From Pseudomonadota bacterium (GTDB taxonomy: Bacteria; Desulfobacterota; Desulfobulbia; Desulfobulbales; JAGXFP01), in the NCBI GenBank assembly GCA_018814305.1, contig JAHJAA010000007.1, positions 1 to 44,163 on the forward strand: a stretch of 44,163 bases of DNA. The letters are read 5' to 3'. Numbering within the stretch: the stretch's first letter is position 1; every line of letters begins with the position of its first letter. Positions 3,397-31,825 of this stretch are shown piece after piece. Under the pieces are notes generated by a model. The model ran no database searches, was not told where the DNA came from, and saw only the letters and a program-made list of their open reading frames with translations. The position numbers were made by a program, and so were the translations under genes.

Positions 3397-3410
3397 TTAT
3401 TAAGGAAAAA

Positions 3411-7117: not shown

Positions 7118-10377
<3,260 letters not shown>

Positions 10378-10431
10378 GGCCAAGCTCAATAAGCTTGACG
10401 CCAGAGGATTAAGAAAAAAAGGAAGAAATTA

Positions 10432-11928: not shown

Positions 11929-11956
11929 GGCCTTTAACTTTAGGTGGAGAGATTAA

Positions 11957-15047: not shown

Positions 15048-15060
15048 TCAGGAGGTAATT

Positions 15061-15270: not shown

Positions 15271-15372
15271 ATAAATAAAAGAGGGAATAAACTAGAGTGA
15301 TCTCTCTTACTCTAGCCCTAGGTTTAATCTCTAGCTTTTTCCCGCAAGTAAATGAACCAAATAGAGAAGTTG

Positions 15373-15404
15373 ATACCCCGTCAGTTTGCTACGGGGGTAT
15401 TTTA
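15373..15404 (+). terminator. Rho-independent terminator after the SIR2-HerA-KTSC operon
   Basis: The arms ATACCCCGT (15373-15381) and ACGGGGGTAT (15391-15400) pair with one bulged base around a 9-base loop and are followed by TTT and an A-rich stretch. This separates the SIR2-HerA operon from the STAND operon starting at 15497. Confidence 0.65.
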
Positions 15405-15496
15405 AAAAATAATTATCAGGCGGCTTTAACTCGACTTTTCGCTGCTTACACATCAACGCATTAACCGGGCATTGTGCCTATCAAACGGAGTTATTA

Positions 15497-18214
15497 ATGT
15501 CAGATGCTTTTAGGCAGTCGGTAATCAGTACTCTCATAAACGAAGTTTCCCTACTCACTGGTGGGCAATTTGAGCAATTTGGTTACAGAGTGATGGAAAT
15601 TGTATTTCCAGCGCAGTGGGTCGAGCGTGGTACTACAGTCGAAGGTGCGCCGCGTGGATACACTGTTGACACCTCGACGAATGGTGCCGCGCTCGTTGCG
15701 GAAATGAGCTCAGAAAGTGATTATTTCCATGGCGATATGGGTAAGCCAACACGGGACTTGCACCACTCGATCATCTTGCACCCAGATGTGAAACGTATCT
15801 GGCTTCTATCGTCCCGAGAAGCAACGGCAGGTGAAACGACGAAATGCGCTAACTTGGAAACAGAGTTCATAAAAGAGCACAAGTTATTGACGCAAGTCGA
15901 GATACTAGATGCCCGAAAAATCGCTGTGCACATCTTCAACAACATAGAAACTGAACGATTTGTCAGCTCTTTAACTACTTATTTGCCGAGCCTCGGAAGA
16001 TTGGCAGACGAAAATGCGTTCAGCCACCGAATACCGATTTATTCTGGTTACCAGCAACGTCTGGAATTAGAGGACATTGTAATTGCTCGACTTACAGATT
16101 CCTCCTGTGTCGTCGTTAGTGGTATCAGTGGAATAGGAAAAAGCGCGCTCGTTGCACACGTTGCGGAGAGACTTCGTTCAGATTTCGATACGATCATCTG
16201 GTATGACGCCCGTAATCTAGGAAATGTTGCGGAACTCTCTGATGTTGACATACGGCGAATTGGCACCAGGCACAACATTACCAGTTTACTCCTTCGGCAC
16301 AAGTGCCTTCTCATTCTCGACGATGCAGTACTTTCTAAGGAAAATATCGCCCAAATAGATTGTGGGGAATCAAAAGTGATTCTCACGTGCCAAGTAAGTT
16401 CTGAGCCAAATTCCATCGAGGTTGGTGAGTTTGATTTCGATTCGGCACGGATTTTATTGCAAGCAGGTGTAACAATTCCTTGCTCAGACGAGGTCTTCCA
16501 ACGCGTGTTTTCGAGCATTGGAGGCTATCCCCTTCTTTTAAGTGCGTTAAACAGGGTAGCCCAAGATGATGGGTGGGAGGCCGTGGATGATTGCTGTGAA
16601 GATGCTACAAGTTCAATTGAAGATGAGCGCCACAACAAGATTTGTCAGAGGATTCTCATGCGGCACCGGGAGTCGTTGGCTTTAGAGTTAGAGTTCGTCA
16701 ATTGGTGTGGCGGCTCGTGTTTCGACTCCGAACTAGCTGCCGTATGCGTTTCACCCAGGGCCGTGAAGAATCTCCAAAAGCGTGCGTTCTTAGCTGCGAC
16801 AACATCTGGCGACATCCGAGTACATGACGTTGTTTATAAGTCTATTCTCGCTGTTATTGATGTGACTGAACATCGTGATACAACCTTTCGTGACAAGCTG
16901 GACAATTTCATCTGCTCGGAATGCGAAAAGGAGAGGCATGTCCTTAGTCGCATCGTGACCCTCCATGCACCGTTAGTCAAAAGACTGGTGGGCGTGGATT
17001 CACGTCCGTCATTTATTTACTCATTGGCTCTCGCCAGGATGAATGACACACCGGTCGACCTACTAGGCGACCCAGTCGCCGCCGCAAAATCTTTAGTTGC
17101 ACTTGATCACTGGGATGGGCGGGAAATCGAAATCCGCGCTGTCATTGAGGTCGTCGAAGCCCTGTATACACTAACATCTGCCAACTACGGGGTGGAGGCT
17201 GCCAAAGCATCTTTAAATGAGAATATCGCAGCATTGGATCTTCTTCTCCACAGCCCTTTGGCTAAAAATGAGTTACTGAGGGATCTCAAACATCATTATG
17301 CCAAAATGCTAATTCGCCTCGAATATTTTTCAGAGGCTGAGACTGAATTTCGATCTATACTCTCCGAATACCCAATGTTTGCTGCTGGGAGGCTTCAGCT
17401 CGCCAGACTTCTAGGGCAACGGGATAAAAAGACCGCTCTTGACGAGTGTGGGGAAATCATCAACCAACACCTATGTAAACAAGGGACAGTATCCCCTCCT
17501 ATTCTACTCGAAACTCTGCGATTATTGGCCAACTTTGGTTCGGCTAACGACGTGAGGCCGCATGAAGGACTAATAATTTCATGCCTAGAGGATGCCCGTG
17601 AATTCGATAAGGCGCTAACATTACGCCTCATTGCCTCAGTTGCCCAAAAGACTTGGTACAAGATGCCGAAGCTCGTATCGCGCATGTTCGATGCGATAGA
17701 GTGGCGTGATGCTGTCCCGGCATCGGATTCCGAACGTTTTGATTGGGCACAGGCCCACAAAGCGGCGGCCAAGGTGGCTGCCGTCGGTGATTCGCGAAGA
17801 CGTGATTTTCTCATAGCAGCTGACGATACGTACAAGAGCATCGTGGCTCCACGTAGCTATAACAGGGTACAGCATGCAGAGGCGCTCATTTTACTCAACA
17901 GATTTGAAGAGGCGAACTCTGTCCTAGATCTTGTGCCTGATAGTGATCATGAATCATTCTGGTGGCATCGGAAGTCCCAAGCTCTGTTTGGATTACAGCA
18001 CAATGATACTGCGCTGGAGGCAATCAACAATGCGCTACAGCTTTTGAAGGGTAATGCTTACAAGGCTGCTTTTCTTAAAGTCCGCCATGATATCAGAGAG
18101 TCCCTATCTGATGCAGGAGCAAGAGATGATCTCTTGGCAGCGATCAATACCCTGCCTGAAGGTGATAAATATAGAAAGGAGTTAGAGTCAAAGCTGGCGG
18201 ATTTGACCAAATGA
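15497..18214 (+). CDS. STAND-type NTPase with restriction-like N-terminus and TPR-like C-terminus
   Basis: The 905-residue protein has three parts. Residues about 1-170 look like a degenerate restriction-fold domain (RGYTVDTSTNGAALVAEMSS, then GKPTRDLHH and a DARKIA segment). Residues about 195-450 are a STAND/NB-ARC-like NTPase with Walker A VSGISGIGKSALVAHV near residue 205 and Walker B CLLILDDAV near residue 270. The rest is helical and TPR-like (AETEFRSILSEYPMFAAGRLQLARLL), the usual ligand-sensing arm. This resembles Avs-type or other NLR-like immune proteins, though I cannot assign a named family. The start is supported by GGAG at 15486-15489. The TGA stop overlaps the next ATG (ATGA at 18211). 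Confidence 0.75.
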   Translation: MSDAFRQSVISTLINEVSLLTGGQFEQFGYRVMEIVFPAQWVERGTTVEGAPRGYTVDTSTNGAALVAEMSSESDYFHGDMGKPTRDLHHSIILHPDVKRIWLLSSREATAGETTKCANLETEFIKEHKLLTQVEILDARKIAVHIFNNIETERFVSSLTTYLPSLGRLADENAFSHRIPIYSGYQQRLELEDIVIARLTDSSCVVVSGISGIGKSALVAHVAERLRSDFDTIIWYDARNLGNVAELSDVDIRRIGTRHNITSLLLRHKCLLILDDAVLSKENIAQIDCGESKVILTCQVSSEPNSIEVGEFDFDSARILLQAGVTIPCSDEVFQRVFSSIGGYPLLLSALNRVAQDDGWEAVDDCCEDATSSIEDERHNKICQRILMRHRESLALELEFVNWCGGSCFDSELAAVCVSPRAVKNLQKRAFLAATTSGDIRVHDVVYKSILAVIDVTEHRDTTFRDKLDNFICSECEKERHVLSRIVTLHAPLVKRLVGVDSRPSFIYSLALARMNDTPVDLLGDPVAAAKSLVALDHWDGREIEIRAVIEVVEALYTLTSANYGVEAAKASLNENIAALDLLLHSPLAKNELLRDLKHHYAKMLIRLEYFSEAETEFRSILSEYPMFAAGRLQLARLLGQRDKKTALDECGEIINQHLCKQGTVSPPILLETLRLLANFGSANDVRPHEGLIISCLEDAREFDKALTLRLIASVAQKTWYKMPKLVSRMFDAIEWRDAVPASDSERFDWAQAHKAAAKVAAVGDSRRRDFLIAADDTYKSIVAPRSYNRVQHAEALILLNRFEEANSVLDLVPDSDHESFWWHRKSQALFGLQHNDTALEAINNALQLLKGNAYKAAFLKVRHDIRESLSDAGARDDLLAAINTLPEGDKYRKELESKLADLTK

Positions 18215-18801
18215 ACCAAGACAAAATCTTAAAAAAACTCATTACAAAATATTGTGGCAAACAAAAGGCTGATGAGTATTTTTCTTTTAAATTGGAAGGT
18301 AAGCAAGTCCTCATTGATACTGCTCAAGAGTTATTAGAAAGTCTACCACCATCTTTTGGTGCCTGTGCTCTAATAAGTGCGACGTGGGCAGGTTTTTTAC
18401 GGGATAAATATTCTGTCCCTGCAATTGTCGTAGCAGGTGATCTTGAAATAGAAGATAAAAAGATTTTTAAATGTCGGAAAAATCTCCCTGTACCCAAAAA
18501 AACCGGAAAACTCGTGCTCGGCAAATGGGATGGCCATTGTTGGATAGAGGTTGATGGAATAATTGGTGATTTATCCATTTTTAGAACAGCATACGCGGTC
18601 AAGGGCCCAAGTATACTTAAGGAATATATCGTTTCAAATTTTGGTATAGGCCGTGGCGCATTCCTGTGTCCAAAAAACGAATTTCCAACAGACTTAAAAT
18701 ATGTCCCTAAATACGTGCTAGATCGCAAGCAAATTAATGGCTTGATATCAGGCATGATGTATCAACTTGAACATGGGAACAACATCGGACAAGTTAAATG
18801 A
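18211..18801 (+). CDS. Putative transglutaminase/papain-like cysteine peptidase fold protein
   Basis: I do not recognise a named family. The 196-residue protein shows what looks like a Cys-His-Asp triad in the order used by transglutaminase-like and NlpC/P60-type peptidases: Cys52 in FGACALISATW, His109 in WDGHCWIEVDG and Asp120 in IIGDLSIFRT. The GHCWIEV-GIIGDLS layout is typical of the two strands carrying the His and Asp in that fold. There is no signal peptide or membrane segment, so it should act in the cytoplasm. It overlaps both neighbours by 4 bases. Proteases controlled by STAND NTPases are known in bacterial immunity, so an effector role is plausible. Confidence 0.6.
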   Translation: MNQDKILKKLITKYCGKQKADEYFSFKLEGKQVLIDTAQELLESLPPSFGACALISATWAGFLRDKYSVPAIVVAGDLEIEDKKIFKCRKNLPVPKKTGKLVLGKWDGHCWIEVDGIIGDLSIFRTAYAVKGPSILKEYIVSNFGIGRGAFLCPKNEFPTDLKYVPKYVLDRKQINGLISGMMYQLEHGNNIGQVK

Positions 18802-19496
18802 ATATATATTCTGAAGTCGTTGATGGCTTAGCGGGATGGCTAAACTTTGAGATGCGCGCAAAGAGAGACAACCTTTTTTCGGAAGCATATCTCGCTAACC
18901 CACTAGGGCAACTATTGAATGCGTCCTTCCCAGGGCGTATCTTAACAGAAATGCAGCATCCCATTCTTGCAGATAAAATGCAAGGTCCTGGTAAGAGACC
19001 TCAGGTAGATTTTGTTGTCACAGGCAATTATGGTAAATGGGATCTTGCTATTGAGACTAAATGGATCTCAAAATCGCCTACTTTGCATCAGGACATAATT
19101 AAAGATGTAATTAGACTGGATCTGCTGGTCCCAACTTACGCTCGTGAAGGGATTTTAATAGTCGCTGGAAACAAAAGAGATTTCTCCGATTTTTTTGAAG
19201 ACAATAAATTCAAAAAACACCCTGATCAGCCAAGCAGTAATCCTCTTTTACCAATTGAGAACCATACCGCCGGTTCAGTACGATTCTTGCCTACATCGGC
19301 ATTCCGGAAAGATATATATAATAAAGCACTCAAACCATTCCGGGGAGTTGAAATTTCCCAAATTATCCGCCTTCAAAGAAGTGGCCCATTTCCAAGAAAC
19401 CCGAATAACGAGCATTATGAAGTTTATTTATGGAAAATCAGAACAGACCGATTAAAGGAGGCTTCTTTCCTCCCAGAAGAACATTTTGACATTTAA
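18798..19496 (+). CDS. Putative PD-(D/E)XK-like nuclease, third gene of the STAND operon
   Basis: The 232-residue protein is not from a family I can name. Residues 66-90 read KRPQVDFVV ... WDLAIETKW, which gives the Asp71 ... Glu86-x-Lys88 pattern of a restriction-endonuclease-fold active site, preceded by a possible helix-strand Glu51. The rest is a mix of charged helices, with a proline-rich end. Its start overlaps the preceding stop (ATGA at 18798), so it belongs to the same operon. A nuclease effector or a partner of the degenerate nuclease domain of the STAND protein is the simplest idea. The function is inferred from motifs only. Confidence 0.6.
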   Translation: MNIYSEVVDGLAGWLNFEMRAKRDNLFSEAYLANPLGQLLNASFPGRILTEMQHPILADKMQGPGKRPQVDFVVTGNYGKWDLAIETKWISKSPTLHQDIIKDVIRLDLLVPTYAREGILIVAGNKRDFSDFFEDNKFKKHPDQPSSNPLLPIENHTAGSVRFLPTSAFRKDIYNKALKPFRGVEISQIIRLQRSGPFPRNPNNEHYEVYLWKIRTDRLKEASFLPEEHFDI

Positions 19497-19957
19497 CAGC
19501 GATCAACATAACAAATACTTAGGCGGTCATCGTGAATGACTGTGCGCGCTATTCGCGCCAAGTACATTGGCGCCGTCTGCTGACTATAGGCGCTATAGAA
19601 AAGGGGTCGCGTCTTTGCTTGACTCACCTTGAATTAACTCGTCAATCAACATACCGCCCTAGTATTTTGACTAGGTTTAAAGTCGACATATCTCTTGAAA
19701 TTGGACACCTGGTATTCCGCCTCTTAGGCTTTTCAGGACGTTCAACATATCAAAGAGGCCTTCAACCTGCAAAAATGCAAAAAAACAAAAAGGACCAAAT
19801 ATCGGCTCAAAATCGCAATATCCAGCTTGTTGTTCAAAATCTTTGAACAATATTTCCGGGAAAGAACGTTCCTGTTTGCCAGCCTCAAACATTCGCTATT
19901 TAATGAGATTACCACCAAACAATGACACACGTAAACATCTGGAATAACATCAAAAAT
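19497..19957. other. Intergenic stretch with no convincing gene
   Basis: A 104-codon open frame at 19532-19846 has no ribosome binding site and an implausible composition. Reading its TGA as Gly adds only 21 residues and does not improve it. I see no RNA gene here. The junction between the STAND operon and the recoded block must lie in this stretch or just after it. Confidence 0.5.
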
Positions 19958-19985
19958 TTGACAAGCAGAAAATTTTCAGTATAAT
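19958..19985 (+). promoter_or_regulatory. Strong sigma-70-type promoter reading into the TGA-rich block
   Basis: TTGACA at 19958-19963 and TATAAT at 19980-19985 are both perfect consensus hexamers, 16 bases apart. The expected start point is near 19992, directly at the tRNA T-arm-like fragment and about 40 bases before the first ORF of the block. Confidence 0.7.
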
Positions 19986-19990
19986 TTATT

Positions 19991-20009
19991 CACGGTTCGA
20001 ATCCGGGCC
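19991..20009 (+). other. tRNA T-arm-like fragment
   Basis: CGGTTCGAATCCGG contains the invariant TTCGAAT loop of a tRNA T-arm with a short stem (CGG/CCG). No D-arm, anticodon arm or matching acceptor strand can be found upstream, where the promoter lies instead. It is probably the 3' end of a tRNA gene left as an attachment-site remnant. A deleted tRNA gene directly behind a tRNA-like promoter is the alternative. Confidence 0.4.
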
Positions 20010-20034: not shown

Positions 20035-20292
20035 ATGCCTACACCTACCTACATGACATCGATTCAGGTCGATGTATTCGAGTCCTGAAACAATTCGAAA
20101 ACACCGGGATCTTCGGCTGCTTCCACCCATCGCACCAAGGTCTATTACGACCTTGTTGAACTGACTCCCGATCAAATCAAAGTAATTGTAAAAATGACAG
20201 CAATCTTGAGTCGTGGAATTTACGACTCCCACCTGCCCCAGTCTCTGGAAGAACAGGTAACCGGAGAGTTGAATATAAATTGCCCTGAGTAA
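20035..20292 (+). CDS. Small protein, unknown; one in-frame TGA (read as Gly)
   Basis: Read with TGA as glycine, this frame runs 85 residues from ATG 20035 to TAA 20290-20292, with one TGA at 20086-20088 in an ESGNNSKTPG context. The later half (KVYYDLVELTPDQIKVIVKM and SLEEQVTGELN) looks like ordinary helical protein. In the standard code it would be cut to 17 residues. It lies just behind the strong promoter at 19958 and is followed by the hairpin at 20313. No Shine-Dalgarno sequence is visible. I know no family. It is the weakest of the four TGA-containing genes because only one TGA is present. Confidence 0.45.
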
Positions 20293-20312
20293 TGGCCTTC
20301 AGTAGCCAAAAC

Positions 20313-20335
20313 TGGCTGTTTCTCAGAAACAGCCA
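20313..20335. terminator. Perfect 10-bp hairpin, possible terminator
   Basis: TGGCTGTTTC (20313-20322) and GAAACAGCCA (20326-20335) form a perfect stem with a 3-base loop, 20 bases after the TAA at 20290. There is no T-run on the plus strand, but a short one follows on the minus strand. It may act as a transcription or processing signal. Confidence 0.4.
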
Positions 20336-20382
20336 TAAAACAACGAAAACCAAAACAAAAATACCCCTTAACACCATATAGT

Positions 20383-21756
20383 ATGAAGAGATCAAAAACA
20401 GAATCTATACTGACCCACCTGACTCATTTTCTTAAATGGCTCTATCGCCCATTTCAGATTTATTCTCTGCACACCTTTTATTTCAGGATGAGAAAAATAC
20501 TCCCGCTCCACGCCTTTAAAAGACACGGATATATCGTCGCCTCTTCCGGTAGTGGGAAGAGTGAATTCATAAAAGTTCTGCTGTATCGTGAACTGATCAA
20601 AAAGAACCCGAATAACAGCATTATTGTCATTGACCCACATTGAGACCTTGTAGAAGAAATAGCCAGACTCAAGCCGATGAAAAAACGTCGGATTTCCAAC
20701 CGCGTGGTCTATATCGATCCTTCTCTTCACCCAGGATACAGCCCCAGCATCAATCCCTTTGAAATTGATGACCGTAGTGAGAAAACCATCGCCCTGATGA
20801 CTCAGGAACTGAGGAGCATTTTCGAAATTCTGCTGCAGGATGCCAGTACAACAAACCAGATGAGCGCGATTTTGAGCCCGTGCATCGCCACCCTGCTCAG
20901 AAGGCCAGACAGCGATTTTTCCGATCTGCAAAGGTTTATGGATGACAACAACAATCAGGACTTGGTGGCACTTGGTGCACAGTCTCCCAATCCCCAGCAT
21001 CGTACCCTGTTCCAGACTCGCTTCTACAACAAAATGTATTCCGCGACAAAGCACGGACTTTATACCCGTATGCAGGTGCTGCTGAACGAACCTGTTTTTC
21101 AGAACCTGATATCCAATACGACAAGCCTAAAATTGAAGCAGCTCATTAACCAGAAGAAAATCATCCTGTTCAAACTGTCCTTGTGAGAGTCTGGAAGTGA
21201 CAGTGTGCAATCCTACGGAAGATTTATTGTGGGCCTCCTGCGCATTTTGGCATTCCAGAGGAGCAGTATTCCCAAGGAATTCAGGGTGCCGACCTACCTG
21301 TTTATCGATGAATTCCAAAACTTTATTTCAGCTGATATTGAAAAAGCGCTTACCCAACTGAGGAAATATGGCCTTCATTTGGTTTTGGCCAATCAGTATA
21401 TCGGCCAGGTGGCATCCCCTGCATTGCAAAAAGCCCTCTTCTCAGCTGGGATCCTGATAGCCGGGAAAAATGAACGTAACAGCTTACGTGCGATCAGCAG
21501 GGAACTGGATGTCCCGATTCCTCTTTTGATGAACATGTCCGTAGGAGAATTCCTGGTGAGCACTCACCACCGGAAGCCATTGCTGATCAAGTCTCCCAAG
21601 CTGCTGCTGGATGGAAATTATTGTGTATCAAGCGAGGAGTGGCAAGAAATCAAAGCCAGAAATCTCCGCCAGTACTACTGTAAGCTCAGACCTTGGGTAA
21701 GCAACACCAGTAACTCCAGGGTCAGTAGATGACAAAAACCTGATACACTCCCCTAA
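20383..21756 (+). CDS. TraG/TraD/HerA-type conjugation ATPase with three in-frame TGA codons (UGA = Gly)
   Basis: In the standard code this is broken into three ORFs (20383-20643, 20677-21186, 21205-21732), all in one frame and separated only by TGA. Read with TGA as glycine it gives 457 residues ending at TAA 21754-21756. TGAs are at 20641, 21184 and 21730. Motifs run on across them: Walker A VASSGSGKSEF near residue 55, then VIDPH-TGA-DLVEEI, where the family has DPHGDL or DPKGDL, then FKLSL-TGA-ESGSDS, then Walker B-like TYLFIDEFQNF near residue 307 and LVLANQYIGQ. No frameshift and no internal TAA or TAG occur. It would be a DNA-transfer ATPase. No Shine-Dalgarno sequence precedes the ATG. 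Confidence 0.8.
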
Positions 21757-21791
21757 TCGCCTAACCCACCTATTTCTTAACCCTTCGTCCT

Positions 21792-22625
21792 ATGAATATC
21801 TCAGTCAACCAATTTATTATTTTGATGGCCCTGGCCAGATTCAAATTTCTGACATCTTCCCAGTTGAAACTCATATTGGGTTGCAAAAGCCTGAGTACGG
21901 TTAACAGTGCACTTCGTGGATTGAAATGATTTCGTTACCCATTGGTAAAAAGTATGGATTTCTGAGTTGCCCCTTGAAAATGAAGACTGGCACCAATCCA
22001 TCACTTGACCAAGACATGAAAGGATCAATTGCTGGAAGGAACCTCACTCACCCTGGAGGAGATTCAAAAGCCATCCTGAAGCGCCGTATTTTTCCAGAAT
22101 GATTATTTTCATCGTGTTTCCACTGTCCGGTTTGCCGTTTTGTTTCAGAAATGGCTGGCCGTCAATAATTATGGATTGGTTGAAATGGACCTCTACTTTA
22201 ACAGCAGGTACTTTGACGGCCAATTTCATACAGCCACCAGAACCTGGTCGCATGGCCGCGTTGTCGAGCCTGATGCCACCGCTATTTACAGCGCCAAAGG
22301 CGTCTACCACACCATTTTGTTCGAGCAACATAACGGTAGAGATGCCAAACGTGCACTGAAACAAATTAAGCAACACTGCCTTTGATTACTGAACGAGCGA
22401 TATCTGGTCCGTTTCACCCAGCGTGACGATATCCGCATCATTTATCTTTTTGAGAACCATCGCTGCATGAATGTGGTTATGAAATGAATGATGGTGAATC
22501 CGTTGATGAGATCTATTCAACACCTTTTCCTGTTCAAAGATGAAGATGAACTGCAACTGAGCTTTGCAGACGGATGGCATCATCCCGATGAAACAATCGT
22601 TTCATTCCTGCCCGGAGCCAAATAG
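21792..22625 (+). CDS. Replication-relaxation family protein with eight in-frame TGA codons (UGA = Gly)
   Basis: No standard-code ORF longer than about 90 codons exists here, yet one frame from ATG 21792 to TAG 22623-22625 gives a coherent 277-residue protein if TGA is glycine. TGAs lie at 21927, 21963, 21975, 21981, 22017, 22077, 22383 and 22485. The N-terminus is a winged helix (ALARFKFLTSSQLKLILG, then VNSALRGLK), followed by HHLTKT-TGA-KDQLLEG, where the family has a conserved LTxxG. The NDYFHRVSTVRFAV, VEPDATAIYSAKG and HTILFEQHNGRDAKRA segments match the C-terminal domain of replication-relaxation proteins of mobilisable elements. There is no internal TAA or TAG and no frameshift. Confidence 0.8.
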
Positions 22626-22713: not shown

Positions 22714-23040
22714 ATGAGTACATTGCTTACAAAAGAATTGGTCAAAATGTTTGAGAATTACCCTCTCTATGCTCAGGACGGTGAGTCAGATCCTTTGGTG
22801 GTCGCCAAATTGTTTGATGCATATGGTTCGGGCACCTGGTATCTGACCGAATATAACCCGGCAGAACAGGTTGCGTTTGGCTATGTCACAGGCTTGGCGT
22901 ATGACGAATGGGGCTATGTCTCACTGAAAGAGCTCGAGGAAATTCGACATCCATTCTTTAAGGTAAACCGTATCGAACGAGACCTCTATTTTGTTCAACG
23001 GCGTTTCTCTGCACTCGGTCTCAAGGAGGCCACTCGGTAG
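22714..23040 (+). CDS. DUF2958 domain protein
   Basis: I chose ATG 22714 because AAGGAG lies at 22701-22706, giving 108 residues that end with TAG. It matches the DUF2958 family of small plasmid and integrative-element proteins: NYPLYAQDGESDPLVVAKLFDAYGSGTWYLTEYNP, then FGYVTGLAYDEWGYVSLKEL and the IERDLYF end (segments of one continuous stretch). It contains no TGA at all, so it is compatible with either code, and its stop is TAG. It is the only gene of the block with a clear Shine-Dalgarno sequence. The function of the family is unknown. A strong hairpin follows the stop. Confidence 0.8.
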   Translation: MSTLLTKELVKMFENYPLYAQDGESDPLVVAKLFDAYGSGTWYLTEYNPAEQVAFGYVTGLAYDEWGYVSLKELEEIRHPFFKVNRIERDLYFVQRRFSALGLKEATR

Positions 23041-23456: not shown

Positions 23457-23825
23457 ATGAACAATGAATTGCACAAATACGCTGAGTCGTATGAGGCTGA
23501 ACTCCTAGCCTATGAACAACTTGAACCAGTTGATTTTATCAAGGAGTACATCGATTCAAATTACACTGGTGACAGTGATGACGAGGATATGATGATCCAC
23601 GAATACTTCGATTGTTTAGAAGTTCAATATTACAAGAATGAACAATCAGATTATGACTATTTCGAAATCACTCTTGGCTACGGGTGACCGAATATCTATC
23701 TGAGTGTCAACAGCAGATGGAAAAGCGTTGAGTACATCATCGCCTGGTGAGGAGATAACTTTACAAAGGATCTCTCACACCTCTATGACACAGTCGTGCA
23801 GCTTTATGCATTGGACTGTTATTAA
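23457..23825 (+). CDS. Small acidic GGPN-motif plasmid protein with two in-frame TGA codons (UGA = Gly)
   Basis: In the standard code the frame stops after 76 residues. Read with TGA as glycine it runs 122 residues from ATG 23457 to TAA 23823-23825. The TGAs at 23685 and 23748 fall in FEITLGYG-TGA-PNIYL and YIIAW-TGA-GDNFT. Small proteins of conjugative elements with a C-terminal GGPN...W(G)GD pattern have glycine at both places. The N-terminus is acidic and helical (residues 1-50). The GTGATTA-free ending and the strong terminator 7 bases downstream support the extended reading. The function is unknown. Confidence 0.75.
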
Positions 23826-23832
23826 TATACTG

Positions 23833-23859
23833 CCCCGGCTTCGGCTGGGGTTTTTTTTT
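23833..23859 (+). terminator. Strong rho-independent terminator
   Basis: CCCCGGC (23833-23839), a TTCG tetraloop and GCTGGGG (23844-23850) are followed by nine T residues. It starts 7 bases after the TAA of the extended GGPN-motif protein. If TGA 23685 were the true stop, it would lie almost 150 bases away, so its place favours the recoded reading. Confidence 0.9.
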
Positions 23860-24111
23860 GTGATGTTAAAAATTGAACGTAAATGAGCTCCATTTCGCTC
23901 TTCATTTTATTCAGAGAGTGAGAAATTTCTTTTATCATTCTTGATGACCACACTTGAAAATCCCCCCAAATTTGATTTAATAGCTACTCAGGGACGATAC
24001 TGAGGCAAGATTGCATGTTCGTAACGAACTTGCGAACCTTGCCAGGGCCAGCCCTAGAACCCGGACTGCACCAGCCGAGCTGGGCAATCGAAAAAGGTCG
24101 GAGATTTTGAG
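23860..24111. other. Intergenic between recoded block and mobilisation operon
   Basis: This AT-rich stretch holds no gene that I can support. It contains the inverted repeats of the putative transfer origin at 24004-24043, and it marks the place where TGA usage changes from sense codon on the left to stop codon on the right. Confidence 0.5.
24004..24043 (+). other. oriT: Putative origin of transfer (oriT): nested inverted repeats
   Basis: Outer arms GGCAAG (24004-24009) and CTTGCC (24038-24043) enclose inner arms GCATGTTCG (24013-24021) and CGAACTTGC (24025-24033), which pair with one mismatch around TAA. It lies 68 bases upstream of the mobC-like gene and its relaxase. Nested repeats next to mobC are where MOBP origins are usually found. 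The nick site cannot be determined by eye. Confidence 0.5.
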
Positions 24112-24492
24112 ATGGATGACAACAGGTCTACCTATCAAAAGTCGTACCGTAAGCGGCATGCCGAAAGGCACCGACGGATCAGCATCTCTGTGTCCAATGC
24201 CGAGTACTCTGCCCTGGAACATATGGCACGCCGAGAGAACACCAAGGTTACTACCCTGGTCCGGGACTATGCCTTCGCCGGACTTTCCAGAACTCTTTCC
24301 GTGCCAAACGAACTGAAAGGCGAACTCCAGCAACTGAGTTTCCTGGTCCGGAATATTGCCAACAATGTGAATCAAGCCGCCCACTACTCGCATACACTCC
24401 GACAGGTAGCCGACGAAAATGGCTTGCTGCAACAGATCAAAAAACTGGAGGAAACTATTCATGCCTTCGTCCAAGAGAGGATGAAGCCATGA
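24112..24492 (+). CDS. mobC: MobC-like ribbon-helix-helix mobilisation accessory protein
   Basis: The 126-residue protein has a basic N-terminus and a ribbon-helix-helix-like segment (RRISISVSNAEYSALEHMA, residues about 20-40). The MobC signature LVRNIANNVNQAAH follows near residue 84, then a coiled C-terminus. MobC proteins bind oriT and help the relaxase open the DNA. GGAG at 24100-24103 precedes the ATG. Its TGA stop overlaps the relaxase ATG (ATGA, 24489-24492), so here TGA clearly acts as stop, unlike in the block just upstream. Confidence 0.8.
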   Translation: MDDNRSTYQKSYRKRHAERHRRISISVSNAEYSALEHMARRENTKVTTLVRDYAFAGLSRTLSVPNELKGELQQLSFLVRNIANNVNQAAHYSHTLRQVADENGLLQQIKKLEETIHAFVQERMKP

Positions 24493-25445
24493 TTATCAAA
24501 TCCATGTCCCGCAAGGAGTCCTCCTTCAATCAGCTGATCGACTACATGGGGTCTGGGAGAGCAGATGAGCGCTTCACTATCCTTCACAATATCTTTAGCC
24601 GGAACCCGGATCAAATCAAGGATGAATTTTACCAAAATGCTGGGTTCCTCCATCGCCGGACAGGCGGCAACTACATGTATCACGAAGTAATCTCTATAAC
24701 CCGGAGTGATCGACTGAGACTTGACGAGCAGAAGGAGAAATTACGGCAGATTGCAATGGATTACATCCGTGACCGTGCCGAAAATAACCTGGCCTATGGT
24801 GCCCTGCACGATGACCATGACAATAATATCCATTTTCATCTGATTATCAGTGCCAATGAGGTTTATTCCCGCAACCGACACCGACTCTCCAAGTATCGGT
24901 TTGACCAGATCAAGAAGGATTTGGAAAAACGAGTACTGGAATGCTATCCAGAGCTGCAGCAAAAAGAACTGATCAATCGCTCAGCAGGAGAACGCATATC
25001 AAACAAAGGTTCCGAGCTGAAGCGGCGAACCGGAAAAACCCCTCAACGTGATTTGGTCAGGGAAAAGGTCAAGACCATTTTTGAACAGGTTTCGACCAGA
25101 GAGGAGTTCCTTGAAAGTTTTGAGAAGGCTGGTTTGAATTTTTATATCCGGGGGAAAGCGCCTGGGGTGATCGATCTGCAGACCGGGCGGAAATTTCGCA
25201 TTAAAACACTAGGATTTCTCTCCCAGTATGAAAACATATCCCAGAAAATTGAAATGAACCTGATGCAGAAGTATGGACATACTGGCAATAAAAAAGCCCA
25301 AATGCATCAGGAAGAGAAATCGACAAAGAAGTGCTCGAAAATAACAAAAGAGGAACGAAACGACAAACGGAAGCAAGAGAAAATGGCCCGTCATCGAGCT
25401 CGTTCGCAGCAATCTGCAGGGGAAAAAGATGGCCACAAACGATGA
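24489..25445 (+). CDS. mobA: MOBP-type relaxase (MobA/VirD2-like)
   Basis: The 318-residue protein shows relaxase motifs: an N-terminal tyrosine in NQLIDYMGSG (residue about 19), the probable nicking residue, and the metal-binding histidine motif HDDHDNNIHFHLIIS near residue 108. The C-terminal third is very basic and Lys/Arg-rich. It would nick oriT and lead the strand through transfer. It overlaps the next gene by 17 bases. There is no large primase or helicase domain, so this is a small mobilisation relaxase. The TGA stop is genuine, because reading through would add only two residues before TAG and the overlap with virD4 is normal. Confidence 0.85.
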   Translation: MIIKSMSRKESSFNQLIDYMGSGRADERFTILHNIFSRNPDQIKDEFYQNAGFLHRRTGGNYMYHEVISITRSDRLRLDEQKEKLRQIAMDYIRDRAENNLAYGALHDDHDNNIHFHLIISANEVYSRNRHRLSKYRFDQIKKDLEKRVLECYPELQQKELINRSAGERISNKGSELKRRTGKTPQRDLVREKVKTIFEQVSTREEFLESFEKAGLNFYIRGKAPGVIDLQTGRKFRIKTLGFLSQYENISQKIEMNLMQKYGHTGNKKAQMHQEEKSTKKCSKITKEERNDKRKQEKMARHRARSQQSAGEKDGHKR

Positions 25446-26973
25446 TTGGAATAGTTGGTCAGGAAAAAAACGCCCCTCTTCAAAGAGCGTTCCACTTGGC
25501 GGATCACTGTTGTCAGATACCATGAAGGGAATCTTCAAAGGCGGCTTGTACCTTCTTGGCCGGAAACTCAACCGCTCAAAAGAAGGAGCAACCTTCGACT
25601 CAGAGTCTGATTATTCAAGCTATCTGAATTCGAGCAATAATGGACTGCTTCTGGATGGCGACAAACTGCGCCTTTCAGAAAGAGACAGCATACAGAATGT
25701 CTGTGTGATGGCCCGCATCGGAGCTGGAAAAACGTCTCGGTACATCATCCCGAATGTACTTGGTAGAGCCCGATCTAAATGCTCAATTGTAGTGAATGAC
25801 CCGAAGGGAGAAGTGTATCAAAACACCTCTGAGCATATGCGCAGGAGTGGATTCAAGGTTGTGGCCATCAACCCGGAAAATCTTGACGGAACCAGTCACT
25901 TCAATCCCCTTTCTGAAGCTAGGAGTGACATCGAGATAGAGCAGATTGCCGAAATTCTAGTGCGCAGTGGCACGCCAACGCATGGTGGGAAGGATGACTT
26001 CTGGATACAGGGATCTATTCGCTTTGCCAATCTATTCATCAAGTGCCTAAAGAATGCAGGTCGGACTAACCAAGGCTACTACAACCTCCATAACCTTTAT
26101 TACCTGTTCCAGAATTTTGGAGAAGATGGGAGGGACCTTGATAAATTCATGGTCAGGTATGCGAAAAATCCAGACGACCCACTCGACGATACCCTCTGGC
26201 ATGAGTGGCAGGGTGTGCTGACCGGCAACAAGGAGGGGGTTCAAAGTTTTATCCTGAATGGTATTACCGCTCTTAAAAGTTTATCCAACCGGAATCTTGC
26301 CGAGCTCACCTCTTATTCCGATATCAGCCTTGAGGATATTCGCAAGGAAAAGACTATCATATACATGATCACCCCTGCCCAGCATGCTGAATACTACAGT
26401 TTCCTCACCAGTCTGTTTTTTCGGAGTGTTTTCAATGCCTGCATGCGACAACTGCCAGACAAGCGGACGCTACCAGTCTACGTCCTCTACGATGAATTCG
26501 GGCACTCTACAATTCCCAATTTTGTTTCGACAGCGAACACCATCAGGGGCTACGGCGTTTCAATATCCATAATCCTGCAAAGCATAAGTCAGCTCAGGGC
26601 CAGGTATGGTGCGGAATACGCCAACTCGATCCAAGGTGGCTTTAATACCTATCTGACGTACGCAGGTGCCGATCCTGTGACTGCCGATTTTTTTGAGAAA
26701 GTTGTTGGTCGAGTTCGGCTGCGGCAAAAAGAAAATTACTTCGACCATGTAGAGCAATATCAAGAGTACAACCTGATGAATGCAGGAGAAGTCAGGACAA
26801 TAGATTCAGATGAAGCGCTGGTCGTTTCCGGCAACCGACAACCCATCAAGTTGAAAACTCTTCCCTATTTTCAAAATTGGTCCTTGATGCGCTGCGCGAA
26901 CAAAGGGCCAGCGCACCTGGCTCCCCCTGAATCGGCTGGTAAGAGGCTGCAGTATGTTGGGCTAGATAAATGA
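25429..26973 (+). CDS. virD4: VirD4/TraG-family type IV coupling protein
   Basis: The 514-residue protein has the coupling-protein core: Walker A ARIGAGKTSRYIIPNVL near residue 97, Walker B-like VVNDPKGEVYQ near residue 121, the VLYDEFGH motif near residue 350 and ILQSISQLRARYG near residue 383. It feeds the relaxase-DNA complex to a type IV channel. The usual N-terminal transmembrane anchor is missing. The two small membrane proteins directly downstream could supply it, which is an inference. No channel genes (VirB4, VirB6 and so on) are in the window, so the element is probably mobilisable rather than self-transmissible. Confidence 0.9.
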   Translation: MATNDDWNSWSGKKRPSSKSVPLGGSLLSDTMKGIFKGGLYLLGRKLNRSKEGATFDSESDYSSYLNSSNNGLLLDGDKLRLSERDSIQNVCVMARIGAGKTSRYIIPNVLGRARSKCSIVVNDPKGEVYQNTSEHMRRSGFKVVAINPENLDGTSHFNPLSEARSDIEIEQIAEILVRSGTPTHGGKDDFWIQGSIRFANLFIKCLKNAGRTNQGYYNLHNLYYLFQNFGEDGRDLDKFMVRYAKNPDDPLDDTLWHEWQGVLTGNKEGVQSFILNGITALKSLSNRNLAELTSYSDISLEDIRKEKTIIYMITPAQHAEYYSFLTSLFFRSVFNACMRQLPDKRTLPVYVLYDEFGHSTIPNFVSTANTIRGYGVSISIILQSISQLRARYGAEYANSIQGGFNTYLTYAGADPVTADFFEKVVGRVRLRQKENYFDHVEQYQEYNLMNAGEVRTIDSDEALVVSGNRQPIKLKTLPYFQNWSLMRCANKGPAHLAPPESAGKRLQYVGLDK

Positions 26974-26998: not shown

Positions 26999-27277
26999 AT
27001 GTATTTGCATGAAATAGCCATTTTTGCTGCGATTGGATACCTGAATGGATACCTGTTTCGTGATATTGGGCCGTTCAAAATAATCGCTCTATTTTTTATC
27101 CTGCCAGCAAGTCTCGATATTCTGATTCAGTTGGATCACGTAAAAATCGCCACTATTCCTTTTTTATTGATGGCTATTCTTGGATTTCTTGGACCAGTAA
27201 AAACTCGACAGCGCCTGGGCAAACTCGCCAGTGATACTCAGTATCATGTTGGATACTTCATGAGACGCAGGCGATGA
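26999..27277 (+). CDS. Small membrane protein of the mobilisation operon
   Basis: The 92-residue protein is strongly hydrophobic, with two or three probable membrane helices (residues about 4-18, 28-45 and 48-68), and ends in a basic RRRR tail. It starts 25 bases after virD4 and its TGA overlaps the next ATG (ATGA at 27274). I know no family. Its place suggests a membrane anchor for the soluble coupling protein or for the relaxosome. Confidence 0.65.
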   Translation: MYLHEIAIFAAIGYLNGYLFRDIGPFKIIALFFILPASLDILIQLDHVKIATIPFLLMAILGFLGPVKTRQRLGKLASDTQYHVGYFMRRRR

Positions 27278-27522
27278 ACGAGACAGAACAAATTTTTACT
27301 CATATTTTCGCCTTTGGCTTAGGGTATGCCATTGCGTTCTCGGTGAAAAACGTGGGGAGAATTTACAAGGAGTGGGGGCTTCTTATCAGCGGTCTTCTTT
27401 TTCCGTCAATTGCCATCGGATTGATTCTTGCTGCCGCAATGATAGCAGATAAGAAAAGTCTGATTTTAAGCTCGGTATTTGGTGCAGGTTTCCTTATCAG
27501 AATGTTGAAGTCACGCTCATGA
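27274..27522 (+). CDS. Small membrane protein of the mobilisation operon
   Basis: The 82-residue protein has about two membrane helices (residues 10-24 and 36-58: LLISGLLFPSIAIGLILAAA) and a short basic end. It overlaps both neighbours through ATGA junctions, so the three membrane-protein genes are one translational unit. No family is recognised, and it may be a diverged relative of the preceding protein. Confidence 0.6.
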   Translation: MNETEQIFTHIFAFGLGYAIAFSVKNVGRIYKEWGLLISGLLFPSIAIGLILAAAMIADKKSLILSSVFGAGFLIRMLKSRS

Positions 27523-28274
27523 AAAGCCTTTCATCGTACATATTTATTGCTGTCATTATGTCCAGCGTGGGCTACATGGCAACCAGAACAAAGAATTTCA
27601 ATATCTGGAAGATGGGGCTGTTAGCATTTATAGCAGCTCCAATTATCATGTCTCTGGAAAATTCTGAAACAGCAGCCTGGGTGGCGGTAACTGCGTTTTT
27701 TGCCGGATATCTTTTGCCTCATGCACATATCTTGGATGGTTTCTTCGGTACAATTAGTGATTTGGTTAATAGTGTCCGCTATAGGGATGATCGTAGACGC
27801 ATCAATTCACAGAAAGAAGAGTTAAGGAGAAGAGAGGAAGAACTGCGCCGCCAAGAGGAAGAACTGGAACGACTCCGCCGGGCTTACGAAGAGGCAATGC
27901 GAAACAGCCAACAGTCTCAACAACATTTTGAAGAAAAAAATAGTCAGGGCGGGCGACAATATGAAAAAGGGGGTAGGGGAAAGCATGAGGATTTTGGCAG
28001 GAAAAAATCCGGTGACAACACGAATTCTAGCTCGAATACAAGGAGACAACCCGACCCAGAATCGAAAAGAACAATCCACCTTAAGGCATTGGGATTCGAT
28101 CCAAACAAGCAATACTCGGAGGATGAAATAAAAATCAGGAAGAGGATGCTGTTGCAAAAGTATCACCCCGACAAACACTACCGAAAGAGCGCAGAAGAGC
28201 TCCACAAAGTGAACGAAAAAACGCAGGAAATTATTCAGGCGGCTTACTGGCTGGAGAGACACCCTGACGAGTAA
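27519..28274 (+). CDS. Membrane-anchored J-domain protein with coiled coil
   Basis: The 251-residue protein has three parts. Two or three membrane helices lie in residues about 5-75. A long, highly charged coiled coil rich in R and E follows at residues about 90-135. After a low-complexity linker comes a C-terminal J-domain-like segment (residues about 185-245) with the diagnostic HPD in LLQKYHPDKHY. J-domains recruit and stimulate DnaK/Hsp70. Fused to membrane helices in a mobilisation operon, it may help remodel the relaxosome or transfer protein, which is inference. It ends with TAA. Confidence 0.75.
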   Translation: MKSLSSYIFIAVIMSSVGYMATRTKNFNIWKMGLLAFIAAPIIMSLENSETAAWVAVTAFFAGYLLPHAHILDGFFGTISDLVNSVRYRDDRRRINSQKEELRRREEELRRQEEELERLRRAYEEAMRNSQQSQQHFEEKNSQGGRQYEKGGRGKHEDFGRKKSGDNTNSSSNTRRQPDPESKRTIHLKALGFDPNKQYSEDEIKIRKRMLLQKYHPDKHYRKSAEELHKVNEKTQEIIQAAYWLERHPDE

Positions 28275-28296: not shown

Positions 28297-28662
28297 ATGG
28301 AAACAGGGCATATTTACACACCAGAAAACGACACCTATCAAGCGAGACTCTCAGCACTCCAGGAGGTCCTTCGTGCACGTGAGCAGGTTAAACGTAGCCG
28401 TTTACACGCTGATTCGCCCGAGTGGTCAAATGCATTAGGTAGTCTTGAAGAGATTGAACAAGCCGAAGAGGTCATTGATGCCAGTTTCTCTATGGCAGCA
28501 CAGGATTTCAATAGAGAGGAACTCCAGCAGGCAAGGAGTGACAAAGCACTGACCGACAACCAATTGACAGAAATTATCAACGCTGTTCGCACCAAAGAGA
28601 TCGACGCGAAACGAAATGACAACAGTTCTGATGAAAAATCCAATTCGAATACACGCTCATGA
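28297..28662 (+). CDS. Unknown helical protein of the mobilisation operon
   Basis: The 121-residue protein is predicted to be almost entirely helical and rich in Glu, Gln and Ser (for example SLEEIEQAEEVIDASFSMAAQDF). GGAAGG at 28286-28291 precedes the ATG. Its TGA overlaps the next ATG (ATGA at 28659). I recognise no family or motif. Confidence 0.6.
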   Translation: METGHIYTPENDTYQARLSALQEVLRAREQVKRSRLHADSPEWSNALGSLEEIEQAEEVIDASFSMAAQDFNREELQQARSDKALTDNQLTEIINAVRTKEIDAKRNDNSSDEKSNSNTRS

Positions 28663-29093
28663 AAAATCAGCCATTCTCAGACAACATGAAAGAGATCGCC
28701 GACAGCATGGGCATTTCTTTGTACCAGCGGTTCAGCCTCAATGAAGCATCTCTCTTTCTGCGTTGTTCAACAGAGGACCTTTTGAAGATCACGAAATCAC
28801 ACACAATCTCCTTTATCCAGGTAACCCGGGATCAGGTCGATTTCTTTGGTTTCCAACTCCTGGATTATTTGCTGAATAACGTAGTAACCAAAGCCCAGCC
28901 AGCTCCTTCTAAATCAAAGACCAACCCAGAGCGAATTGTTCGGGCAAAAGAACTCCAGGAATTGACTGGATTGTCACGAACAACTATCTGGAGAATGGAA
29001 CGGGACGGCAAATTCCCCTCGCGAGTCCCCCTTTCAGGGAGCAGCGTAGGATGGCGATATACTGAGCTTATGGATTGGATGAGGACGAGATAA
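28659..29093 (+). CDS. AlpA-like helix-turn-helix regulator
   Basis: The 144-residue protein ends in a MerR/AlpA-type helix-turn-helix (residues about 95-140: RAKELQELTGLSRTTIWRME, then DGKFPSRV and a GWRYTELMDWM end), as in phage and integrative-element regulators. The N-terminal half has a second helix-turn-helix-like part (FSLNEASLFLRCSTEDLLK). As last gene of the mobilisation operon it may regulate transfer or excision. No integrase gene is seen nearby. Confidence 0.75.
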   Translation: MKNQPFSDNMKEIADSMGISLYQRFSLNEASLFLRCSTEDLLKITKSHTISFIQVTRDQVDFFGFQLLDYLLNNVVTKAQPAPSKSKTNPERIVRAKELQELTGLSRTTIWRMERDGKFPSRVPLSGSSVGWRYTELMDWMRTR

Positions 29094-29383
29094 AGGAACT
29101 GAAGTTTGTTTTAGAACACAGGACTTGAGATTTTGTGACCTTTACGCTTATTTTCTGAAACAAAAACCGACCTACTTAGTGTTTTGCTGGTCTAGCTGAA
29201 ATTACGCATAAAATACACTGAGAATACTCTAGCAAACATATTGCTTTACTACTATTTTTAAAAGTATACAGTAGTTGTCTGGGAGGCATATACACACTCT
29301 CTGGATGTAAAAACATACTATGTTACGTATAAAAAATGCAGAAATGCTCTGAAAATTTGAGCTGCTTAGGGGTTAAATCGAAA
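29094..29383. promoter_or_regulatory. AT-rich intergenic region with possible promoter
   Basis: No gene is visible here. TTGCTT at 29241-29246 and TATACA at 29265-29270, 18 bases apart, form a possible sigma-70 promoter for the three-gene system that follows. The base composition drops sharply from here to about 37 kb. Confidence 0.4.
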
Positions 29384-31825
29384 ATGAAAATTACTGATGG
29401 CTCAGGAGCAGACCTTACTTCAAACAAAGTTATTGATAGCCTTAGAAACAAAAAAATAAATATAAGACTTAAAACTGAGCATTCAATTTTAGGAATTAAG
29501 GGGCGCAAACAGTTAGCTAAGCTATTTGATGTTGTTAGCGAGTTTCTTCAAAATAAGAAAATAAATCCCGGTCATATCAAGGGGATGATTGAAATTGTGT
29601 TTGACCCTCATACAAAGAGTTTCGATCCTACAGTTGCCGCTTGGGGGATTCTCTTTTCAGGATTGTTGACTAAGGTTACTTTTAGGTTTTCCTTTCCTCA
29701 TGGAGACGTAGGTAAGAGCCCCGCTTTATATCGCCTGAGTCAAATACTTCTTCCACATCTTGTGTTGAAGAAAACCAATATTGAGTTGCGGTCCTATGAT
29801 ATAGGAAGACCTGGGAAGCTATTCTCTTGGCAAAATTTTCTGCGTCAACACCTTAGGGTCTCATCAGCATATCTGCCACCAATAAATCTTAACAATAAAA
29901 ATTATGTTTTTTACTTCGATAATAACGCAAGGGTTATCTGGAATAGTCTATTTAATGCAAGTGAAATTGCGAAGCTACTTGAAAAAAATGTTCCCCATAA
30001 ATCAACCTCTTCATCAAAAGACAAAGACATAGGTAAATTAATATTTAATATTATTCGTGAAAGATTGTTAGATGAATTGTTTGATAATGGTGAAGTTAAT
30101 TATGAAAGAATTGTAAATGTTTTACTAGTATTATATATGGCAAAAGCAATAACATTATTGAAATGTTGGATAGTAGTCCTTGATAAATATATTTCAGAAG
30201 GAAGTAATGCTCGACTATATCGTTATGTGTCAGGAAAGTCTAGCAAGGTAGGCTCACTAAAATATAACGAAAAACTAGAATACTATAAGAAAAACAAAGA
30301 AATACTAAGTCAAGTATTTGATAGTTCTCCTTTTTCAGTCTTTTTGTTTTCTTTTTTTCTAATCAACAATTACTCCCCAAACATGTATTCAGGTGATCCC
30401 GATCATCAACTTGACAAATTATTAAGTCAAATAAAGTCTATTCGAAACGTTTCTGTTGAAATCTATTCAGGGGTTTATGAGTTAGCTAAAAACATTGTTG
30501 AACATGTTCCAGAAGGAAATGGTTTTATAATTGGCAGGGTGTTTACAGCTGATTATTTAAAGGAAATTTACTCAGAGGAGTATGAGGATTTCAGGACCTA
30601 CATAAATTCATTTCAAGGTGATCAGCAATTTTTTAATTGTGTTGTCTTTGATAATGGGAAAAAGGGCATTTTGTATAAAACTCAAAGCAAAATTACCAAG
30701 CTAATACCGTCGGTTCAAAACAAGATTCTTAAAAAGCATTTATCAGATGAATTGGAGTGTTTTAATAATCAAACACTGGGGTTGCATGATTTTTTTGATT
30801 TGAAACATGTTCGAATGTTTCACCAGAAAATCAGGACCGCCGCGAGCCTCGGTCTGTTAATGCTAACAAATATGCTACGCATTAATAACGGTTTTTTATC
30901 TGTCAGTAGTGTTGATAAACATGGAACTCAGGGGATAGTTTACTATGGGAATGAAACAAAATCTCTACAAGGGGAATGGTGGGCAAATATTGGTACCCAA
31001 TTTGAATTATTTGTGCCCGTGTCCGCCAAAAAACCTCTTGAGTTACGAGCTCGACAGTATAGGCCTGTAGAGCCAATTATAGCAGGCGATGCATATGAGG
31101 GGCTTCTTAACTATTGTACCATAGATGAGAAAGATGAAATTCATAGCTCCTGTAATATTTGTGATCCTCATGTATTGTGTCTACATAATTCCTCAACTAC
31201 CAATGTTCATTGGGAATCATTTCATCTAGAGCATGCAAAACTATTTAACAAAATCAGTAGTTCTAAATGTAATGATCACCATAGAAAAGTTTTCACAATT
31301 AAGATCGAAGACAATAACAATTTTATAGATGCGAGCGACCTATTTCGTTTGTTAGCACAGCTGCAAATTGAGGTGGGATATAATGCTGTCGTAATTTATA
31401 ACCTCAAAGAAGAAACGTTACATACCTTTTTTGAGATATTCAGAATATATGGAGAACTTTTGGGAATGGATGTTTGGAGTGGACACCAAACTGCACTTTT
31501 TTATTATGTCCCACAGAGTTCGTCATCCCATAAAAAGTTTAGCGCTTTTTTAGTTACAGGTCGAACTTTAAGGGATTTAGTGAATTCAAACGAAACCATA
31601 CATTCCCATAGCCCCGGTGATCCAATATGGAATGATTTCTTTCCTATGACGCAGAAAAGTGGAGAAGATGAAGATCTTATGGAGAAACAAATTGACAATC
31701 CACTGGTTATTGATGGGAAATACTTGATTCCACTGGATTTGGTGCTAAAAGTTGATGGGCTTTCGTTGTTCGAATGGAATATGCGCACTAACCTCTTAGA
31801 TGAATTGTTAGGAGGTGACTTGTGA
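29384..31825 (+). CDS. Large GHKL-ATPase-like protein, first gene of an unnamed three-gene system
   Basis: The frame is open from ATG 29336, but I prefer ATG 29384 (MKITDGSGADL), as no ribosome binding site precedes the first, giving about 813 residues. I do not recognise a named family. The middle has features of a GHKL/histidine-kinase ATPase: an N-box-like VYELAKNIVEHVPEGNG near residue 370, a D-box-like VVFDNGKKGI near residue 420, and a G-box-like AASLGLLMLTNMLRINNGFLSVSS near residue 490. A cysteine-rich stretch (SSCNICDPHVLC) follows near residue 590, which could bind metal. No His phosphoacceptor domain is evident. The coding DNA is very AT-rich. The stop overlaps the next GTG. Confidence 0.65.
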   Translation: MKITDGSGADLTSNKVIDSLRNKKINIRLKTEHSILGIKGRKQLAKLFDVVSEFLQNKKINPGHIKGMIEIVFDPHTKSFDPTVAAWGILFSGLLTKVTFRFSFPHGDVGKSPALYRLSQILLPHLVLKKTNIELRSYDIGRPGKLFSWQNFLRQHLRVSSAYLPPINLNNKNYVFYFDNNARVIWNSLFNASEIAKLLEKNVPHKSTSSSKDKDIGKLIFNIIRERLLDELFDNGEVNYERIVNVLLVLYMAKAITLLKCWIVVLDKYISEGSNARLYRYVSGKSSKVGSLKYNEKLEYYKKNKEILSQVFDSSPFSVFLFSFFLINNYSPNMYSGDPDHQLDKLLSQIKSIRNVSVEIYSGVYELAKNIVEHVPEGNGFIIGRVFTADYLKEIYSEEYEDFRTYINSFQGDQQFFNCVVFDNGKKGILYKTQSKITKLIPSVQNKILKKHLSDELECFNNQTLGLHDFFDLKHVRMFHQKIRTAASLGLLMLTNMLRINNGFLSVSSVDKHGTQGIVYYGNETKSLQGEWWANIGTQFELFVPVSAKKPLELRARQYRPVEPIIAGDAYEGLLNYCTIDEKDEIHSSCNICDPHVLCLHNSSTTNVHWESFHLEHAKLFNKISSSKCNDHHRKVFTIKIEDNNNFIDASDLFRLLAQLQIEVGYNAVVIYNLKEETLHTFFEIFRIYGELLGMDVWSGHQTALFYYVPQSSSSHKKFSAFLVTGRTLRDLVNSNETIHSHSPGDPIWNDFFPMTQKSGEDEDLMEKQIDNPLVIDGKYLIPLDLVLKVDGLSLFEWNMRTNLLDELLGGDL

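Follow-up and report, generated by a model that had tools for sequence, protein, structure and literature searches.

An integrative mobilisable element family with genes apparently sorted between the standard genetic code and UGA = glycine

The window, by which is meant the whole stretch of DNA analysed here, is the entire contig C25 (44,163 bp) of a standard-code genome of 4.15 Mb that is 96.7% complete. At its centre, a short repeat common to genomes of the same family or order (19598–19704) forms the standard-host DNA immediately left of a block of recoded genes, and a consensus sigma70-type promoter (TTGACA-16-TATAAT, 19958–19985, forward strand) lies upstream of the recoded operon. All genes of the block are on the forward strand: a small gene (20035–20292, 85 aa, one TGA), a gene for a VirD4/HerA-like ATPase (20383–21756, 457 aa, three TGA), one for a Replic_Relax-like protein (21792–22625, 277 aa, eight TGA) and, beyond a DUF2958 gene of the standard-code class with a Shine-Dalgarno start (22714–23040), one for a protein labelled DUF123 here (23457–23825, 122 aa, two TGA). 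The last belongs to no known family or fold and gave no meaningful structural match, and the structure model of the small protein was of low confidence. An intrinsic terminator on the same strand (23832–23851) closes the operon and is followed by an oriT-like nested inverted repeat (24004–24043). Further right, again on the forward strand and in the standard code, come genes for a MobC/NikA-like protein (24112–24492), a MobA/VirD2-like relaxase (24489–25445) and a type IV coupling protein of the VirD4/TraG type (25429–26973), each with a TGA stop, then three accessory genes of the mobilisation operon (26999–28274), the last with a weak DnaJ match, a 121-aa gene (28297–28662) and an AlpA-type regulator (28659–29093). 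Neither a Rep gene nor an integrase was seen in the window. A T-arm-like stretch at 19994–20009 (GGTTCGAATCCGGGCC) was considered as an attachment site or tRNA remnant and was rejected: its position falls within what is presumed to be the operon's 5' leader, and the relatives have a different sequence there.

On the left, positions 693–19496 hold a defence island in the standard code, with AbiE-type genes, a type I restriction-modification system (3411–10377), a SIR2 and HerA pair (11957–15047) and a STAND/TPR protein (15497–18214). As a related element (L013) carries defence-type genes between its Rep and ATPase genes, part of this island may be cargo. Directly after AlpA, a run of three genes (29336–36755; 829, 1323 and 324 aa) of low GC content (about 35%), for which weak matches to DUF7222 and to a response-regulator-like domain were the sole family assignments, is perhaps cargo too. 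Two 555-bp copies that are 91% identical lie in regions of AbiE-type genes (1888–2442 and 43403–43957), with a third on contig C66, and a repeat at 1–147 and 38232–38378 recurs on three or more other contigs of the genome; the window's contig begins inside one such repeat.

The four recoded genes of the window are open only if UGA is a sense codon. In-frame TGA is found in the small gene at 20086, in the ATPase gene at 20641, 21184 and 21730, in the Replic_Relax-like gene at 21927, 21963, 21975, 21981, 22017, 22077, 22383 and 22485, and in the DUF123 gene at 23685 and 23748. Relatives of the ATPase, with 58–84% identity, were located on seven genome contigs from ecologically diverse carriers, with in-frame TGA in every one. 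Like the window, most of these are contigs of metagenome-assembled genomes (MAGs); they include a 396-kb contig of a Colwellia MAG (L016) and a 39-kb contig of a gammaproteobacterial MAG (L015), but L014 is a 345-kb contig of Colwellia sp. 1_MG-2023, a cultured marine isolate. For the short MAG contigs (L011, L012, L013 and L017), the assigned host is unreliable. The near-identical element fragments L011 and L012 from Saanich Inlet were placed in two MAGs, one gammaproteobacterial and the other of Neomarinimicrobiota, which is a warning about the binning of mobile elements.

When 60 alignment columns bearing TGA were scored with BLOSUM62, glycine was the best assignment (+84), followed by serine (+17), and tryptophan scored −141; a reading of UGA as tryptophan or any other residue was ruled out by these scores. 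Glycine made up 37% of the aligned residues in such columns against a background of about 3%, 19 columns were otherwise all glycine, and UGA and GGN interchanged at conserved glycines in the manner of synonymous codons. In the window, 14 of the 46 glycine codons of recoded genes were UGA, as were 22/62, 22/62 and 22/68 in L015, L014 and L016, whereas the standard genes gave 0/105, 0/60, 0/60 and 0/64, respectively. Across the four elements, the UGA share of glycine codons is 30–35% in recoded genes, against none of 289 in standard genes; for the standard genes of the window, the probability of finding no TGA at the recoded rate was 3e-17 (Fisher 1e-8).

The sequence-only reading had described a sharp switch of code between adjacent modules, with TGA as sense only everywhere left of 23825. 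The switch itself proved real, as the genes at 20035–22625 and 23457–23825 need UGA to be glycine and the mobilisation genes from 24112 stop at UGA; TGA stops were confirmed right of that position for MobC, the relaxase, the coupling protein and three further genes, and no TGA occurs among the 105 glycine codons of the window's standard genes. Sense-only use of TGA, however, held for those two intervals alone, the genes up to 19496 being in the standard code, and no single boundary was found. The standard-type DUF2958 gene sits amid recoded genes, and the switch is therefore made gene by gene rather than at one border. Its assignment is based on its start after AAAAAGGAG and on the orthologues in L012, L014 and L016, which end in TGA. 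The change between 23.83 and 24.11 kb coincides with the terminator and the oriT-like repeat.

The same mosaic was found in the relatives. In L014, L015 and L016, the Rep3 initiator, the small gene, the ATPase, the Replic_Relax gene and DUF123 are recoded, and DUF2958, MobC, the relaxase and the coupling protein are in the standard code, as are AlpA in L014 and L016, the integrase in L016 and the cargo of L014 and L013 (a subtilase plus an AAA ATPase; an ABC-3C-like system). The small gene is kept in L011 and L013–L017, and in L015 and L017 it is likewise preceded by a consensus sigma70-type promoter pattern. At the junction, the order DUF123, terminator, oriT-like repeat and MobC is unchanged in L015, with a terminator-like hairpin at the equivalent place, a conserved inverted repeat and identical order of the three accessory genes. 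A homologue of the 121-aa gene lies near AlpA in L014 and L016, and the AlpA of the window is 55–57% identical to that of the Colwellia elements. Every relative spanning both blocks was mixed; a complete element with TGA as glycine throughout, which had been named as contrary evidence, was not among them. The two Colwellia elements occupy different insertion sites, that of L016 following groL, with a P4-type integrase, a tyrosine recombinase, beside groL and chromosomal flanks on both sides; direct repeats were not found at the ends of the L016 element. The relaxase and accessory MobC are predicted from Pfam matches, and the oriT from its repeat kept in L015. In the ORFs of the regions read and in their Pfam matches, no VirB4 or other mating-pair formation genes were noticed. 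No phage structural genes were present among the element's Pfam and PHROG matches, and no tRNA was found in the element.

It was also considered that a Gracilibacteria contig had been joined to a normal one by misassembly or contamination, given that the window and the majority of its relatives come from MAGs and that the ATPases of L011 and L012 are 98% identical despite bins of different phyla. The gene order is the same, however, in independent assemblies that include the isolate's 345-kb contig, which refutes such an artefact for the element family, and the ends of the window's contig bear repeats that recur in other contigs of that genome. In addition, the GC and GC3 of the recoded genes track those of the standard host (GC3 of 0.52 in the window versus 0.51 and 0.55), unlike low-GC Gracilibacteria. 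The chance of a chimera is therefore considered negligible. The agreement in GC3 also indicates that most mutation seems to occur in the standard host.

The earlier reading had further offered a fusion of two elements as one origin of the mosaic. An accidental fusion was not upheld, as the mosaic recurs in L014, L015 and L016 and the two gene classes resemble each other in synonymous divergence and in the purifying selection acting on them. Between L014 and L016, pS was 0.24–0.40 and dN/dS 0.02–0.15 for the recoded genes, compared with 0.28–0.37 (AlpA 0.59) and 0.03–0.15 for the standard genes; the two classes have thus evolved together, with neither recent fusion nor decay. These values bear equally on the possibility that a standard-code mobilisable element took up a plasmid module of Gracilibacteria type in the distant past and now carries it as dead weight. 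The lack of any copy found in Gracilibacteria-class genomes would fit such a relic, as would the missing Rep of the window and the in-frame TAG that interrupts the Rep of L015. Purifying selection equal in recoded and standard genes (dN/dS about 0.1) argues strongly against it, however, as do the UGA sites themselves, of which 21 were kept between L014 and L016, two were changed to GGN and none to other codons, and the open frames of all 29 recoded gene copies save for the one TAG. A relic is accordingly judged very unlikely.

Four elements have UGA as the eleventh codon of Rep (L014 7559, L016 8113, L015 8166 and L013 57), which in a cell with the standard code would end the initiator at ten residues. 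This early UGA is suggestive of a selected lock, but all-UGA columns were not clearly beyond chance. The ATPase and Replic_Relax genes of L014 (10001–12270), L015 (9977–12114) and L016 (9986–12255) overlap by ATGA with a TAA two codons on, and the ATPase would therefore end almost identically in either code.

Several features of the recoded genes point to the kind of cell that would read them. CGA and CGG together made up 33 of 328 arginine codons in recoded genes and 121 of 376 in standard genes, and CGG alone 9/328 against 43/376 (p = 8e-6). CGG is predicted to encode tryptophan in some Gracilibacteria (PMC8629427), and in UGA-recoded genomes of the Gracilibacteria class, over stretches of 7–18 kb, it contributed 0–4% of arginine codons. 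CGG fell in columns that are otherwise all tryptophan in two of six cases for recoded genes and in none of 31 for standard genes; the two columns are carried by L014, L016 and L015, the CGG codons of the window standing at arginine-compatible or variable columns. Start signals differed as well. A Shine-Dalgarno site preceded 0 of 29 recoded genes versus 15 of 24 standard genes of the same elements (p = 2e-7), and of the 28 recoded genes whose upstream region was complete, 26 had a TAA at −16 to −12. This TAA was present in 97 of 159 genes (61%) from UGA-recoded genomes of the Gracilibacteria class (L237–L246), with Shine-Dalgarno sites at 3%, and in 9 of 60 genes (15%) flanking the Colwellia elements, with 28%. 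The motif is not exclusive, being known from Bacteroidota and from other Patescibacteria as well, and is thus stronger evidence against a Colwellia-type reader than for a Gracilibacterium. The sequence-only reading had put forward an element that shuttles between a normal host and an epibiont-like partner with the altered code, and this gained support from all of these signatures: UGA as glycine, CGG at tryptophan columns, CGA/CGG avoidance, missing Shine-Dalgarno sites and the upstream TAA.

The recoded host could instead be an unsampled UGA = glycine lineage other than a Gracilibacterium. The carriers are ecologically diverse, and no orthologues of the ATPase and Rep were found in 353 genomes of the class holding the recoded Gracilibacteria, where the best ATPase match was 30%. 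Plasmids are frequently lost from MAGs. In IMG/VR no orthologue was found, the ATPase query giving distant matches only and the Rep and Replic_Relax queries none, and PLSDB held no close relative. Bacterial UGA = glycine is, however, known only in Gracilibacteria and Absconditabacteria, with CGG = tryptophan predicted in some (PMC8629427), and an unsampled lineage is considered improbable.

A decoder for UGA was sought in both element and host. No UCA tRNA was detected in the elements by ARAGORN, by cmscan at gathering and permissive thresholds or by pattern scan. In genome G000, with 43 tRNA matches, none was found, nor among the at least 47 matches listed for the draft genome of the Colwellia isolate (G041), for which 150 of 316 candidates were scored; a pattern scan of G000, G041 and G043 was likewise negative. 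As a positive control, ARAGORN called a UCA tRNA in Gracilibacteria-class DNA. In UGA-recoded genomes of that class (L247–L256), the UCA tRNA belongs to a conserved cluster of tRNA genes, and ARAGORN names it tRNA-SeC. Because no such tRNA was found, it is plausible from the sequences that the recoded genes would be silent in a normal host, which is the expression lock proposed by the earlier reading.

These searches also bear on whether a single standard-code host might suffice, with a phage or plasmid occasionally bringing a UCA glycine tRNA and the recoded genes being on only then, as happens with late genes in recoded phages. Phages that combine recoding with suppressor tRNAs are known (PMC10879173, PMC10746230), the GC3 of the recoded genes equals that of the standard host, and those of the window follow a consensus sigma70-type promoter. 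Such helper gating would, however, leave the start signals (no Shine-Dalgarno sites, a TAA motif) unexplained, along with the avoidance of CGA and CGG and the presence of CGG at tryptophan columns, and UCA tRNA was absent from the elements and not found in three host genomes. It is held to be unlikely.

Taken as a whole, we consider it likely that this is an integrative mobilisable element written stably in two codes, sorted by gene, with two hosts of which the recoded one is of Gracilibacteria type. With somewhat less assurance, we lean towards a new class of element with an obligate two-host, two-code cycle, in which genes are written and started for the cell where they act and the code, not a repressor, locks replication. 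That it is new is judged within the open-access literature, where no comparable element was found. In a standard-code bacterium, such as Colwellia, other gammaproteobacteria or the host of the window, the element would sit in the chromosome and its cargo, often defence genes, would be expressed. Integrase and AlpA would provide integration and excision, and DUF2958, MobC, the relaxase and the coupling protein would serve mobilisation, with the recoded genes locked both by UGA and by their start signals. Nicked at oriT, the element would be mobilised by its own relaxase and coupling protein via a resident conjugation apparatus into a physically associated UGA = glycine cell, most likely a Gracilibacteria-type epibiont. 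There the replication genes would be readable, and the element would replicate as a plasmid and then return. The recoded set, comprising the Rep3 initiator, the Replic_Relax-like protein, the motor ATPase and two small proteins, would thus cover replication and maintenance. The transfer step and the epibiont stage are inferred; the host-like GC3 of the recoded genes suggests long residence in the standard host, selection acting whenever the element passes through the recoded cell. Weighing against this reading are the failure to find the ATPase or Rep in the 353 Gracilibacteria-class genomes, in IMG/VR or, as a close relative, in PLSDB, the host-like GC and GC3 of the recoded genes, the lack of Rep in the window and its in-frame TAG in L015, the wider occurrence of the TAA motif and the small number of columns, two, behind a tryptophan reading of CGG. 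A closed genome of a marine Gracilibacterium was obtained from a Colwellia-dominated enrichment, and its authors proposed an association (PMC6851277); two of the carriers found here are Colwellia.

With the code of Gracilibacteria and Absconditabacteria (NCBI table 25, with CGG = tryptophan in some lineages; PMC8629427), the recoded genes share UGA = glycine, rare CGA and CGG, CGG at two tryptophan columns, the lack of Shine-Dalgarno sites and TAA before the start; unlike in those bacteria, only five gene families are recoded, in standard-code chromosomes, with the tRNA not found and host-like GC. Recoded-stop phages of standard hosts (crAss-like, Lak and others) (PMC10746230, PMC10879173) resemble the element in having both codes on one element and possible timing by code, but they bring a suppressor tRNA; this element has none found, is not a phage and differs in its start signals and second codon. 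Phages predicted to be code-compatible with Gracilibacteria and standard-code hosts (PMC10746230) are likewise inferred to cross the boundary between UGA = glycine and the standard code; however, by avoiding in-frame UGA they keep every gene functional in either host, whereas this element splits its genes by code. Integrative mobilisable elements are alike in the relaxase, MobC and coupling protein, the oriT-like repeat, AlpA, the P4-type integrase (L016) and defence-type cargo, no transfer apparatus having been noticed in the regions read, but here the replication genes are unreadable in the carrying host. The Rep of L014 shares the Rep3_N and Rep3_C domains of the Rep3/RepM initiators of Acinetobacter and Moraxella plasmids, with distant RepM matches; against these, the element's Rep is 22–29% identical and UGA-recoded.

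Differing genetic codes are usually regarded as a barrier to gene transfer. Here the difference is apparently exploited, the genes of the element being divided between two codes. Standard gene callers miss the recoded genes because these look like pseudogenes, and UGA-recoded genes in standard-code genomes offer a means of finding the hosts of Gracilibacteria. With an isolate among the two Colwellia carriers, the idea is testable in culture. If true, the element would be a natural case of expression restricted by the genetic code and a direct genetic record of exchange between uncultured epibionts and partners known by name, including Colwellia.
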